This document shows, piece by piece, positions 7,437-32,562 of a stretch of 40,979 nucleotides of DNA; position 1 is the first letter of the stretch; every line of letters starts with the position of its first letter. A program made the translations under genes and the position numbers. Location of the stretch: contig JAQUPE010000006.1 in NCBI GenBank assembly GCA_028716745.1, positions 1 through 40,979 of the forward strand, read 5' to 3'. Source of the DNA: Minisyncoccota bacterium. Lineage in GTDB: Bacteria; Patescibacteriota; Minisyncoccia; UBA6257; 02-FULL-45-10c. The notes beneath the pieces were generated by a model. It saw nothing but the letters and a program-made list of their open reading frames with translations. It was not told the origin of the DNA and did no database searches.

Positions 7437-8261
7437 ATGATAAGAGAATCGGAGGTCGTAGAGAAAATCGTGTTCGACGTCTTAAATGACGGCTTGAGCG
7501 CGAGAGCAAAGAAAAAGCTCAGGGAAAGAATCATTTCTGCGTCCCGGCCGTTCATCAGACACATTTCCCGCCGCTATGATTTTGGCGTGGTCCCCAAGGA
7601 GGACTTGATCGCGCATGGAGAGGTGGGAGCGCTGGAGGCGCTGGAGAAATTCCGTCCTGAGCTCGGCTACAAGTTCACGACTTTCGCCGGGTATTACATA
7701 AGGAAAGAGATGCTGAAGGCCATAGGCCTGTTTTCCAGAGACATCGTATTGCCAGCGTGGATACTCGATGAAATCAGAAAACTGGAAAAGACCAAAAATC
7801 TGCGGCGACTGAATTTCGCCGAAGAAGAAAGGCTTTACCAGCTCATGGAGTTCCTGGCTGAAAGCAAGACGATATCCCTAGATACTCCCTTCAGGGATTC
7901 CGACTACTACAAGTTCGGATTTGGCCTGATCGACAGGGAGGATGAGGAGCTGGACACGGAAGAGCTGGAGTCTCTGAAAGAGATTCGCTTTACCGACGTC
8001 CTGTCCGACAAGACAAAAGGCATCGAGACCATCCTGGAGGAAGAAGAGATCAAAAGATTCTTCCGCAAAGCCAAACAACTGCCCGAAAAGGAGAGGGCTG
8101 TTGTGGCAATGAGATTCGGTTTCGAAGATGGGAAATTTCACCTCATCTCCGAAATAGCGGAAGAGCTTGGCTTCTCCGAAGGAACCGTGTCCAGGCACCT
8201 CAAGAGAGCCCTGGATCATCTCGGATGGATTCTCTGCAGGAAGTACCTGTGCATCCGTTAA
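7437..8261 (+). CDS. Sigma-70 family RNA polymerase sigma factor
   Basis: Region 2 (DLIAHGEVGALEALEKFRPELGYKFTTFAGYYIRKEM) and region 4 HTH (ISEIAEELGFSEGTVSRHLKRAL); GGAGGA SD 7 nt upstream. Confidence 0.9.
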   Translation: MIRESEVVEKIVFDVLNDGLSARAKKKLRERIISASRPFIRHISRRYDFGVVPKEDLIAHGEVGALEALEKFRPELGYKFTTFAGYYIRKEMLKAIGLFSRDIVLPAWILDEIRKLEKTKNLRRLNFAEEERLYQLMEFLAESKTISLDTPFRDSDYYKFGFGLIDREDEELDTEELESLKEIRFTDVLSDKTKGIETILEEEEIKRFFRKAKQLPEKERAVVAMRFGFEDGKFHLISEIAEELGFSEGTVSRHLKRALDHLGWILCRKYLCIR

Positions 8262-14095: not shown

Positions 14096-14305
14096 TTAGG
14101 AAATTCCTAACTTTTTATTTCTTTCAGTTTCTTTTCTTTTCACTTCGCGATGGATAGCAGAAAGACGCCTTTTAATACGGCTGATTGGGCGGTCATGAAA
14201 ACGCCTTTTTCTGGCTTCTCTTAAAATACCGCTCTGCATAACTTTTTTGGAAAAACGAAATATCAATGAATTGGCCGTTTCCCCTTCTTTTTTCTGTACG
14301 TGCAT
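14096..14305 (-). CDS. rpsU: 30S ribosomal protein bS21
   Basis: 69 aa basic; SLIFRFSKKVMQSGILREARKRRFHDRPISRIKRR. Confidence 0.85.
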   Translation of the reverse strand: MHVQKKEGETANSLIFRFSKKVMQSGILREARKRRFHDRPISRIKRRLSAIHREVKRKETERNKKLGIS

Positions 14306-25561: not shown

Positions 25562-26146
25562 TTAAATTTTAAATACCTGCACCCAATGCAATACAAAACA
25601 TTTATTTATAATTATAGTAAAAAAAGCCGTTGGCAGCCAAAAATAATATAAAGAAAGGCGCCCATCTTTGTTTTTAAGAGAGTAAATTGCAGACGACAGC
25701 AAACTTATAAATAAAGTAAGAATAAGATAGGTTATCCATCCAGGATGGCTGGTTAAAAAAATCGCCAGAGCCAAAAAATAACATTCTTCCCGCTCCAGAA
25801 ACCTTTCCTCATATTTTTTATTGAAATATTTTACTCCGAAAAACGCCAGCAAGCTCATCGCCAAAGAAATCAAATGGGGCGCCCAAAAACGCGTAAACGC
25901 ATATTCAATGAAATAATTAATTTCCTGATAAGGAGGGAGTAAATATTTGGCCGATGCCGGTGAATTTTTCCAAACAGAGTACTGCATTATTGACCAATAT
26001 AAAGCGAATCCAAAAACTACCGCTATGGATATAAAAAAAACTGTCCTATATATAGCCGGATATTTGGACTGATATTTCTTTAAAAAAAACTGCATTCCGA
26101 ACGCCGCGGCAAAAATACCCAAAATACAATAATCAGTTAAGGTCAT
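25562..26146 (-). CDS. Multi-TM membrane protein in the pilus locus, hypothetical
   Basis: ORF with several TM segments; start taken as MTLTDYC; no GxGD prepilin-peptidase motif. Confidence 0.6.
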   Translation of the reverse strand: MTLTDYCILGIFAAAFGMQFFLKKYQSKYPAIYRTVFFISIAVVFGFALYWSIMQYSVWKNSPASAKYLLPPYQEINYFIEYAFTRFWAPHLISLAMSLLAFFGVKYFNKKYEERFLEREECYFLALAIFLTSHPGWITYLILTLFISLLSSAIYSLKNKDGRLSLYYFWLPTAFFTIIINKCFVLHWVQVFKI

Positions 26147-26233: not shown

Positions 26234-26827
26234 CTATAAATCCAAATCTGCGTCTGTTCCCACTTCATAATAACTGACTGAATTGCCTCCGTCCCCCGTT
26301 TCTTTATCTTGGTCTCCTCCGGTTTTATAACGATTACTCTCTATGTCCGCATCTAATTCAAAAGTTTTTTCTGTATTATCACAGGCATAAGAATAAAAGT
26401 AGGTAGTGTCATTAACCGGATCTATAGGCAGCGCCGAAATCGGCGATCCGCCGCTTGAATCAATAAACCTTACCGGTATCCACCCGGCACCATTTACGCT
26501 TCTGAGGGGTATCACAGTCGAAGTTTTTCCAGGATGTCTTCCTCCGCAGCTTGCGGCTGTTTCAGCTACATATGTAAAACAAAGGCTTGAGCATCCTACA
26601 TAAGTTCCATCCAAATCTGTTGTTGAAGCAGTTGATAGATAAAAAGAAAGCGCATTGCCTATATTGGTTAAATCGGTAAATCTCTGCGAATCGCGCGCCT
26701 GCCTAAAAAGCTCAACCGGATTCAATACTATAAGAGTCGCAGTGCTGAGAACAACTAAGATACCAATAACAACGAGCAGCTCTACTAATGTAAAACCGCG
26801 TTTTTGCTTTTTTTGAAAACTATCCAT
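26234..26827 (-). CDS. Type IV pilin (pilin A)
   Basis: KRGFTLVELLVVIGILVVLSTATLIVLNPVELFRQARDSQR. Confidence 0.88.
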   Translation of the reverse strand: MDSFQKKQKRGFTLVELLVVIGILVVLSTATLIVLNPVELFRQARDSQRFTDLTNIGNALSFYLSTASTTDLDGTYVGCSSLCFTYVAETAASCGGRHPGKTSTVIPLRSVNGAGWIPVRFIDSSGGSPISALPIDPVNDTTYFYSYACDNTEKTFELDADIESNRYKTGGDQDKETGDGGNSVSYYEVGTDADLDL

Positions 26828-26901
26828 TTCTTTCTATTATGATAACAAATTAAAAGACGATGTGAAAACTATAATTGTTAATAGACTGATATACGGATAT
26901 A

Positions 26902-26925
26902 AAAAACTCCGGCCAAAACCGGAGC
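26902..26925 (-). terminator. Rho-independent terminator after the pilin at 26941
   Basis: Minus strand CTCCGG TTTTGG CCGGAG TTTTTT. Confidence 0.9.
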
Positions 26926-26940
26926 TTTCAAAATCGTTTA

Positions 26941-27522
26941 TTAGAGGTCTAATCCAGGATCATTACCTACTTCATAAACCGATGAGGAGCTTCCTCCATC
27001 TGTTGATTCTTTATCGTTCGCGCCGCTGCTGGCATAACGAGTGCTTTCCATGTCCGCGTCTAATTCAAAAGTTTTATTTGTGTTGTCGCAAGCATAGGAG
27101 TAAAAAAGATTGCCGCTGCTTGAAGGATCTGTCGGCAAAGCCGAAATAGGAGCACCGCCGGTAGCCATGTTAAAATTGACGCCAATCCAACCGCTCTGAT
27201 CAACAGCCCTAGAATTTATTCCTTGGCTTGTTCCAGAGTGCCTGCCCAAACAGTTCGCTGCCTGTGTGTTTCCATAATTGAAACAGTTAGAGCAAGAACC
27301 TGTCGAACCATACATCTGAGTCGTTGTGGCAGTAGAAAGATAAAGAGAGATGGCGCTGTTCAATGTTGATAAATCAGAAACTCTCTGTGAATCGCGCGCC
27401 TGAGCAAACATCTGCGCAGGATTTAATACTAATAAAGTAACTGTAGCCAAAATAGCTAAGATACCGAGAACGACGACTAGCTCAACTAACGTGAAACCTC
27501 TTTTAAGTTGTTTTGTGTTCAT
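26941..27522 (-). CDS. Type IV pilin (pilin B, tandem paralogue)
   Basis: KRGFTLVELVVVLGILAILATVTLLVLNPAQMFAQARDSQR; C-terminal half parallels the ORF at 26234. Confidence 0.88.
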   Translation of the reverse strand: MNTKQLKRGFTLVELVVVLGILAILATVTLLVLNPAQMFAQARDSQRVSDLSTLNSAISLYLSTATTTQMYGSTGSCSNCFNYGNTQAANCLGRHSGTSQGINSRAVDQSGWIGVNFNMATGGAPISALPTDPSSSGNLFYSYACDNTNKTFELDADMESTRYASSGANDKESTDGGSSSSVYEVGNDPGLDL

Positions 27523-27974: not shown

Positions 27975-28164
27975 AATTTACATTTATAAAATAATTTTAA
28001 TTATAGCAAAAAACAGCAATTTCTGAAAACCGCTCTTAAATTAAACCGAGAATAATAGAAAACTTTTTAGTTGACCCAACCTCGTTTTTTAACGAGTTCT
28101 GTTTAAGGCACAGATATAAGCCTTTTACCAACCGAGGCTTCTAGCAACGGTTGTCCTAAAATTT

Positions 28165-29652
<1,488 letters not shown>

Positions 29653-30495: not shown

Positions 30496-31230
30496 ATGAT
30501 ACAAAAACTTATTCTTGAAATACGAGCGGGGGCAGGAGGAGATGAAGCCGCAATTTTTGCCGGCGAAATGGGAAGGATGTATCAAAAATATTCCGCTAAA
30601 CGCGGATGGTCTTTTTCAATACTCGATAGCAACTCCACTACTCTGGGCGGATTTAAAAGCATGGTCGCACAGATAAAAGGAGAAAGCGCTTATGACGATT
30701 TAAAAAATGAATCCGGAGTGCACCGCGTCCAGCGAGTTCCTAAAACCGAAAAAGCGGGGCGCGTTCATACCTCAACTATTTCCGTTGCGGTTCTTCCCGA
30801 GGTTGAATTAAAACAGGTAAATATAAAACCGAGCGATTTGGAAATTACCACTTTCCGCTCCTCCGGCCCGGGCGGACAAAACGTCCAAAAAGTGGAATCA
30901 GCTGTCAGAATTTTGCATAAACCGACCGGCGTAGTAGTCGCCTCTCAAAGCGAACGATCCCAGCTCCAAAACAGAGAGTGCGCGATGTCTATTTTGTGTT
31001 CAAAAATATATGAAGCCCAGCGAAACGCCGAAGCGGCTAAGCTTGGCGCCGACCGAAAAGAACAAATCGGCACAGCCGACCGTTCCGAAAAAATGAGGAC
31101 CTATAATTTCCCCGACGATAGAATTACCGACCATCGCGTCGGCAAAAAATTCCATAATATAGAAAAAATCCTTGAAGGAGATCTCGATCCAATCGTCAAA
31201 GCCTTTAAAAAGCAGCAAGCCCCCTCCTAA
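30496..31230 (+). CDS. prfA: Peptide chain release factor 1, N-terminally shortened (244 aa)
   Basis: LEIRAGAGGDEAA, HRVQRVPKTEKAGRVHTST, SSGPGGQNVQKVESAVR, DDRITDHRVG. Confidence 0.9.
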   Translation: MIQKLILEIRAGAGGDEAAIFAGEMGRMYQKYSAKRGWSFSILDSNSTTLGGFKSMVAQIKGESAYDDLKNESGVHRVQRVPKTEKAGRVHTSTISVAVLPEVELKQVNIKPSDLEITTFRSSGPGGQNVQKVESAVRILHKPTGVVVASQSERSQLQNRECAMSILCSKIYEAQRNAEAAKLGADRKEQIGTADRSEKMRTYNFPDDRITDHRVGKKFHNIEKILEGDLDPIVKAFKKQQAPS

Positions 31231-31281: not shown

Positions 31282-32562
31282 TTATTTGGTGGCGTTGTAG
31301 AGAGCCAGAATTTCCGCGGCGGAAAGAGCGCGGTTATAAAGCCTCATCTCATCAATAATGCCGTTGAAAAAACGCGTGCTATTAATCAGCGATCCAACGG
31401 ACATTGTATTGGTAACGCTTCTTAAAGTTTTAGTTTGCGCCGTACTATTATCATAAGCTCCATTAATATAAATCGTTACGGCTGAGCCGTTATAGGTTGC
31501 TGCTATATGATACCAATTTCCAGTTCCATCTGTTACCGCCGAAACACTGTGTAATGATGTTGCGCTATTATCTGTATAATCAGTCTGAACAAAAGCATAA
31601 TTACCTGTATAATTCCAACCAAGCTTATAATAATCATAAGAATCTTGAATGCTAAAAATATTATTATCGGCTCCATCACTGGTCCCATGGCCTTCTATAT
31701 ATACCCAAGCCGCCATAGTAATTTTATTAGTACTTAAGCTCACGCTTGGACTTGCTTTGTTAACTGAATCATTTGATCCATCAAAATCTAAAGCTCCTCT
31801 TTGTTTACTAAAATCTGTCCAAACAGGAACACTGGCAAAAGTTAAATTATTTCCAATACCGCTCACATCATAAACAGTCGTTCCGCTCCCCTCATCAAAT
31901 GTCCAATAGCCGATAAGGGATGAATCTCTTTTGTATTCTTCAACTGCTGTAGGGGTTAATGTGAGAGTTGTTCCTACTTCAAAGCTGGCAATGGATGTTC
32001 CTCCGTCTGTCATGGATGCGCCTCCGTTTACGCTGGAGAACTTTTCTGATTCTGCTCTGGCTGTCATCTCCCATGAGGCTCCGGTTACATATGTGTAATA
32101 ACCGTCTGCCAATGTGTTGATTGGATCTATAGGTAAAGCAGCAAACATCTGGCCTACTGTGGTGGAGACAGATGTGAAGTTAACGGGTATCCAGCCTGTT
32201 CCGTCTACCTTGCGGTAGTTGGTAGCTGTCTTGCATGAGTAGGTCCAGCCTGCAGGTAGGGCTGGGAGGGCATATGAGGCACAGGTGGATGAGTTATCGG
32301 GGAGAGATACATAGACTATATTAGCTGTTCCATAGCTTGTTCCCTCTACGGATCTGTAGAGTAATAGAGCTTTATTGATTGATTCTAGGTCTGAGAGTCT
32401 CTGGGTATCTCTGCTTTGTTTGAAGAGTTGATCTGGTCTGACTACTAATAGAGTTACTGTGGCTAATATAGCTAGGATGCCTAGGACGACGACGAGTTCG
32501 ACTAATGTAAATGATGATCTGTCTTTAATAATAACTTTAGTTAGCCGAAAATCTATTTTCAT
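31282..32562 (-). CDS. Type IV pilin-like protein with C-terminal LamG domain
   Basis: SSFTLVELVVVLGILAILATVTLLVVRPDQLFKQSRDTQR; LIGYWTFDEGSGTTVYDVS...IIDEMRLYNRALSAAEILALYN. Confidence 0.86.
   Translation of the reverse strand: MKIDFRLTKVIIKDRSSFTLVELVVVLGILAILATVTLLVVRPDQLFKQSRDTQRLSDLESINKALLLYRSVEGTSYGTANIVYVSLPDNSSTCASYALPALPAGWTYSCKTATNYRKVDGTGWIPVNFTSVSTTVGQMFAALPIDPINTLADGYYTYVTGASWEMTARAESEKFSSVNGGASMTDGGTSIASFEVGTTLTLTPTAVEEYKRDSSLIGYWTFDEGSGTTVYDVSGIGNNLTFASVPVWTDFSKQRGALDFDGSNDSVNKASPSVSLSTNKITMAAWVYIEGHGTSDGADNNIFSIQDSYDYYKLGWNYTGNYAFVQTDYTDNSATSLHSVSAVTDGTGNWYHIAATYNGSAVTIYINGAYDNSTAQTKTLRSVTNTMSVGSLINSTRFFNGIIDEMRLYNRALSAAEILALYNATK

Follow-up and report, generated by a model that had tools for sequence, protein, structure and literature searches.

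The window, which is the whole stretch of 40,979 nt that was analysed, carries a 16S rRNA gene in the middle of a 41-kb contig, near the genes for bL31 and a release factor (Table 1). Most bacteria use the anti-Shine-Dalgarno (aSD) sequence at the end of this RNA to find gene starts. The gene is covered from end to end by the Rfam model RF00177 (29652-28165, model positions 1-1533, 1400.5 bits in cmscan), and its 3' end reads GGATCA-TTTTATTAAAAT. According to the original prediction, helix 45 and the following GGATCA are intact, the usual tail is replaced, and no CCTCC occurs before the next gene. All of this was confirmed: the quoted minus-strand sequence is present, the Rfam match is full-length, and the nearest downstream CCTCC is 2,242 nt away, within the protein gene at 25936. 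The AT-only tail is predicted to be unpaired. If the aSD has been lost, the mature 16S rRNA would end in ...GAUCAUUUUAUU.

The genome assembly of this tiny bacterium of parasitic type (661 kb, 15 contigs, 98.3% complete) contains a single 16S locus according to the Rfam search, and no further copy with CCUCC was found in it. Within the portion of the genome that was read (636 kb), the 16S-like sequence GATCACCTCC does not recur. Shorter tail-like strings occur in the genome, none of them adjoining a 16S helix 45. The 23S rRNA gene is located on a separate contig (C3:70321-72511), and is thus unlinked from the 16S gene. KsgA, which modifies the loop of helix 45, is encoded on contig C12 (TIGR00755, 198.9 bits).

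The 16S gene is flanked on both sides by type IV pilin-like proteins with the N-terminal methylation motif, one of which has a laminin G-like domain, and is followed by a response-regulator gene. The release factor encoded downstream of bL31 (244 aa, with PCRF and RF-1 domains) begins in the middle of the PCRF domain, at profile position 101, and therefore appears to be devoid of the usual N-terminal domain. The missing part was not seen in any frame of the 300 nt upstream.

Table 1. Features of the window discussed in the text
Feature	Position	Strand	Basis and remarks
Sigma-70-family protein	7437..8261	+	The one ORF of the window for which an upstream SD-like motif (GGAGGAG) was scored
bS21 (rpsU), retained	14096..14305	-	PF01165, 38.8 bits, E 7.4e-10
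Type IV pilin-like proteins, first side	26234..27522		N-terminal methylation motif
AT-only tail TTTTATTAAAATTTTAGG replacing anti-SD CCTCCTTTCT	28155..28172	-	
16S rRNA gene	28165..29652	-	Rfam RF00177, cmscan; sole copy found in the genome, not linked to 23S
Conserved GATCA linker after helix 45	28173..28177	-	Sequence and comparison with relatives
Helix 45, intact	28178..28201	-	10 pairs, GGAA tetraloop; KsgA substrate
Release factor	30496..31230	+	PCRF and RF-1 domains
Type IV pilin-like proteins, other side	31282..32562		N-terminal methylation motif

16S tails in the order, the class and the phylum

An unbiased Rfam search for genomes of the same order yielded 26 with a readable 16S 3' end, from independent assemblies. 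Comparison of these ends did not reveal a single CCTCC (0/26), so that the loss is common to close relatives. CCTCC is absent from the 16S end of the genome of the same genus (G001) and from those of relatives in the same family. Relatives with the same kind of 16S end belong to the Paceibacteria (Parcubacteria; Patescibacteria/CPR), and the named ones are Harrisonbacteria, Liptonbacteria, Jorgensenbacteria, Wolfebacteria (L117) and Paceibacter. The sequence of the tail is conserved in part. ATTAA follows GATCA in 13 of the 26 order tails and ATTAAAC in 10, counted in the set L001-L029 only; L061-L117 had been fetched with a pattern requiring GATCAWTTNA. Within the family of the window, the tail varies between TTTTATT and ATTAAAC.

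Most of the phylum retains CCUCC: in the sample, CCTCC is found after helix 45 in 166 of 287 genomes. A base other than C at the first aSD position is present in only 21 of the 287, 12 of them in the class of the window (2 in its order); the 9 outside the class have eroded tails of the UCUCC, UUUCC or UCUCU type. Among the 44 class tails listed, 21 are canonical, 10 are partly eroded (UCUCC, UUCUCC, CUUCU and UCUCU among those listed) and 13 consist of A and T only. A tree was built from 123 16S genes with the tail left out, and it requires at least six changes between canonical and non-canonical tails. The number six is approximate, the tree being a quick one in which some branches are long and some rows (e.g. 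L030) are probably misbinned; that there was more than one loss in the class is secure. Judging from these comparisons, the loss of the aSD turns out to be old and repeated within the class, and is shared by every relative checked in the order.

The 16S 3'-end pattern is matched twice in each of two genomes, G234 (family f28, contigs C2 and C6) and G396 (family f162). In G234, one match has CCTCC and lies at a contig edge, and the other has an AT tail. Both genomes are probably mixed bins. A natural pair of aSD-plus and aSD-minus genes as in G234 would be of interest, if true. In family f101 of another class (G162, G217, G237, G255 and G198), the tails are nearly uniformly GGAACAUCUCCUUACCAGGGAGU and pairing with the trailer is kept; in G198 both arms are altered (UUUCC...GGGAA). 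From their sequence, the f101 tails would be a case of independent, partial aSD erosion. Relatives with an aSD frequently have pairing of the type CCUCC...GGGAG, with apparently compensatory changes in some of the variants (CUCC/GGAG versus UUCC/GGAA). A conserved hairpin between aSD arm and trailer is not claimed here, because pairing is not general in the order of the window.

Translation starts and the distribution of SD motifs

Open reading frames were predicted from the first ATG in the genome of the window, as well as in five further CPR genomes (a 400-kb piece of each), of which G047 has masked stretches. Genes with a homologue in another set are termed conserved; orphans are genes without a match in the five partial CPR genomes only. 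An SD motif at positions -16 to -4 was found for 7 of 397 conserved genes of the genome, compared to 6 and 3 in the control windows. The aSD-bearing genomes gave similar counts, with 4/213 (controls 2 and 2) for G431 and 4/210 (controls 2 and 4) for G087. SD motifs are thus not enriched before conserved genes, either in this genome or in the five other CPR genomes. The native genes of all six seem not to use SD motifs, whether the aSD is kept or not. The original prediction that canonical SD:aSD pairing is unavailable agrees with these counts and with the absence of CCTCC from the only 16S gene found.

A different signal is present upstream of the start codons. In all six CPR genomes, the motif TANNNT has its maximum precisely at position -12 relative to the ATG, with 13.7% versus 3.1% elsewhere in the genome of the window, 12.6% versus 1.6% in G217, and the weakest peak in G047 (11.6% versus 5.6%). 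The commonest -12 motif is TATAAT or TATACT, with TATAAT foremost, and corresponds to a -10 element spanning roughly positions -12 to -7 relative to the start codon. In addition, the start codons of those genomes that are AT-rich are preceded by A-rich sequence. The pattern is consistent with leaderless mRNAs in a minority of genes, the others having A-rich leaders. The -12 peak is equally strong upstream of genes inside operons. As the -10 signature is limited to a minority of genes and does not weaken in operons, leaderless starts alone cannot cover most genes, and, given the peak inside operons, one has to consider internal promoters or a different role of the motif.

A dispersed repeat, approximately GGTATAATTAATCGAATTTCTACTACCCGGT, ends exactly at the start codons of unrelated genes (C1:15683, C4:8641, C4:43792 and C10:9137 in the genome of the window) and carries a -10-like box. 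It may be a mobile or duplicated leader element.

SD motifs are nevertheless present in the genome, but nearly all of them on orphan genes. GGAGG, AGGAG or GGGAG at textbook spacing, with a peak at -9 to -14, precedes 53 ORFs (about 9%). Among orphans the count is 41/185 (controls 2 and 4), and the orphans of the family relative G003 yield 15/91 (controls 0 and 0). When ORFs of at least 120 aa are considered, a homologue in the five CPR sets is found for 6 of 42 SD genes and for 358 of 490 others (Fisher p ~5e-14). The median GC content is 0.478 for SD genes and 0.393 for the others. Reciprocal-best pairs between the genome of the window and G003 have no SD site in common. Aspartate-semialdehyde dehydrogenase, prolyl-tRNA synthetase, a DegT aminotransferase and radical SAM proteins are examples of SD genes, and the window itself contributes one ORF (Table 1). 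Contamination was considered as the source, but chimeric contigs are unlikely, because the SD-bearing genes are interspersed with conserved ones along long contigs. The GC-rich orphan genes with SD motifs are probably recent imports. The precise spacing of their SD motifs would be odd if they were not read in the cell.

Era, bS21 and possible explanations

The binding site of the GTPase Era is GAUCACCUCC beside helix 45 (PMC10582724). Few CPR bacteria have Era (PMC10582724, PMC12641178). Only 1 of 208 genomes of the class has an Era match above the curated cut-off, and this match, a 471-aa frame with two GTPase matches, looks like Der. In the genome of the window, TIGR00436 (Era) was matched only below the curated cut-off. 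Era is missing both in class families that keep CCUCC and in those that do not. Its absence therefore permits the loss of the aSD, but is insufficient as an explanation on its own. The retention of bS21, also part of the original prediction, holds true (Table 1). The profile search matched bS21 in 136 of the 208 genomes of the class, aSD-bearing and aSD-less ones alike, and its presence therefore does not discriminate. Occlusion as in Bacteroidia, where CCUCC is held by bS21, bS18 and bS6, does not apply here, since CCUCC is absent from the 16S rRNA though bS21 is present.

We consider it highly likely that the aSD has truly been lost throughout the order and repeatedly in the class, and that native genes start without rRNA pairing. 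In this scenario, CPR lineages would first have ceased to use SD motifs for native genes. Era, the reader of GAUCACCUCC in 30S assembly, would next have been lost in the entire class. With the SD and Era constraints both gone, CCUCC could then have decayed to AT-only tails, with UCUCC and UUCUCC as intermediate stages. Native mRNAs would initiate without rRNA pairing, many of them as leaderless transcripts with a -10 box ending beside the start codon, and the remaining ones through A-rich unstructured leaders. Residual SD sites would be found mainly on recently imported genes, without a 16S partner.

The alternatives that question the loss itself have to explain a whole order. The contigs are MAG-derived and 16S genes are prone to misassembly, so that one may think of an error just past GGATCA or of a chimeric 16S gene. 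Against this, CCTCC is missing in the same genus (G001), in the same family and in the remainder of the order, all assembled from unrelated samples. Furthermore, the changes of the tail follow the 16S tree through intermediate states, and the gene is located mid-contig. Because 26 of 26 same-order ends from independent assemblies are without CCTCC, chance and assembly error are excluded, and an assembly or binning artefact deserves hardly any weight. There is also only a slim chance that CCUCC is restored (end AUUUUAUU) by a second 16S gene, a split rRNA exon or a post-transcriptional change. Introns are frequent in CPR 16S genes, and a divergent second copy is conceivable in an unclosed assembly, but Rfam finds one match, GATCACCTCC is missing from the sequence read, and at least 25 other genomes of the order are in the same state, so that the whole order would have to hide such a gene. 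A second 16S gene or hidden CCTCC exon was looked for in the genome of the window, and none was found.

Other alternatives accept the loss and assign a role to what is left. The recurrence of ATTAA in 13 of 26 order tails, 10 of them with ATTAAAC, exceeds expected drift and could point to a novel anti-SD and a correspondingly novel SD as its pairing partner. We regard this as very improbable: duplex energies of each genome's own tail with the -20 to -4 regions are no better than those of shuffled tails, the tail differs within the family (TTTTATT versus ATTAAAC), and no enriched upstream word complementary to it was recognised. The tail of this genome was therefore rejected as a new anti-SD, for lack of excess complementarity to upstream regions. 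The sharp SD peak that the orphan genes of two genomes without aSD show between -9 and -14 would be accounted for if SD sites were kept by selection and read by a non-16S route, for example by a protein such as bS21 or bS1. This is decidedly unlikely, since SD sites are not shared between orthologue pairs of the window genome and G003, and the high GC content and few homologues of the SD genes fit recent import. Finally, the order tail (GAUCA-AUUAAAC in many families) could be a functional replacement, with a role in 16S maturation or start selection, and imported SD sites could be read without the 16S 3' end; we think of this combination as very unlikely. True loss of the aSD thus remains the preferred explanation.

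If it is correct, loss of the aSD is no longer a curiosity of insect endosymbionts and Flavobacteria, but has happened commonly and repeatedly in one of the largest bacterial radiations, where living lineages display intermediate states (UCUCC, UUCUCC). The two candidate constraints on CCUCC, SD pairing and Era binding, become separable, because Era is gone class-wide while some families keep CCUCC. Gene callers trained on SD motifs and annotations of CPR 16S 3' ends call for care. An SD site in such genomes may even be a practical marker of a recently imported gene.

Comparison with known systems

Initiation on leaderless mRNAs is familiar from archaea, Deinococcus and Mycobacterium. The -10 box directly before the start codon is alike, but here there is a sequence signature alone, and it is found in aSD-bearing CPR genomes as well. 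In Bacteroidia, the anti-SD is kept but occluded in a bS21/bS18/bS6 pocket, and in F. johnsoniae single CCUCC mutations are harmless and multiple ones tolerated (PMC9976891, PMC8710568). As in the Bacteroidia, ribosomes here seem not to use SD motifs, and leaders are A-rich. In contrast to the Bacteroidia, where proteins hide CCUCC, the sequence is gone in the genome described here.

The original prediction left open whether the loss is documented for the clade. It is, for at least one close relative. Table 4 of a 2024 paper (PMC10783764) includes SD-scarce CPR genomes without CCUCC, namely Wolfebacteria, Campbellbacteria, Peribacter and Absconditabacteria SR1. The phenomenon is the same, and Wolfebacteria (L117) is among the relatives with a window-like 16S end, so that the loss is not peculiar to this organism. 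As far as the accessible part of that paper goes, it covers single CPR genomes, one or two per group, whereas the extent here is order-wide. The accessible open-licence literature contained no paper on SD and aSD in Patescibacteria as such. Neither the order-wide extent and the repetition in the class with intermediate tails, nor the independence of aSD loss from Era and the confinement of SD motifs to imported-looking genes, were found in this part of the literature, and earlier work may exist elsewhere.

The genome of the window is thus a much broader case of a known phenomenon. Loss of CCUCC is documented for Flavobacteriia (Weeksellaceae, Blattabacterium), hemotropic Mycoplasma, and the insect endosymbionts Hodgkinia, Carsonella and Nasuia (Lim et al., PMC3522020; Amin et al., PMC6107228; PMC10783764). 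As in those bacteria, helix 45 is intact, there is no copy with CCUCC, native genes lack an SD signal, and close relatives are alike. Unlike in those bacteria, the loss extends over an entire order of ultra-small CPR bacteria, it has recurred in a single class, and SD sites persist on genes that look imported.
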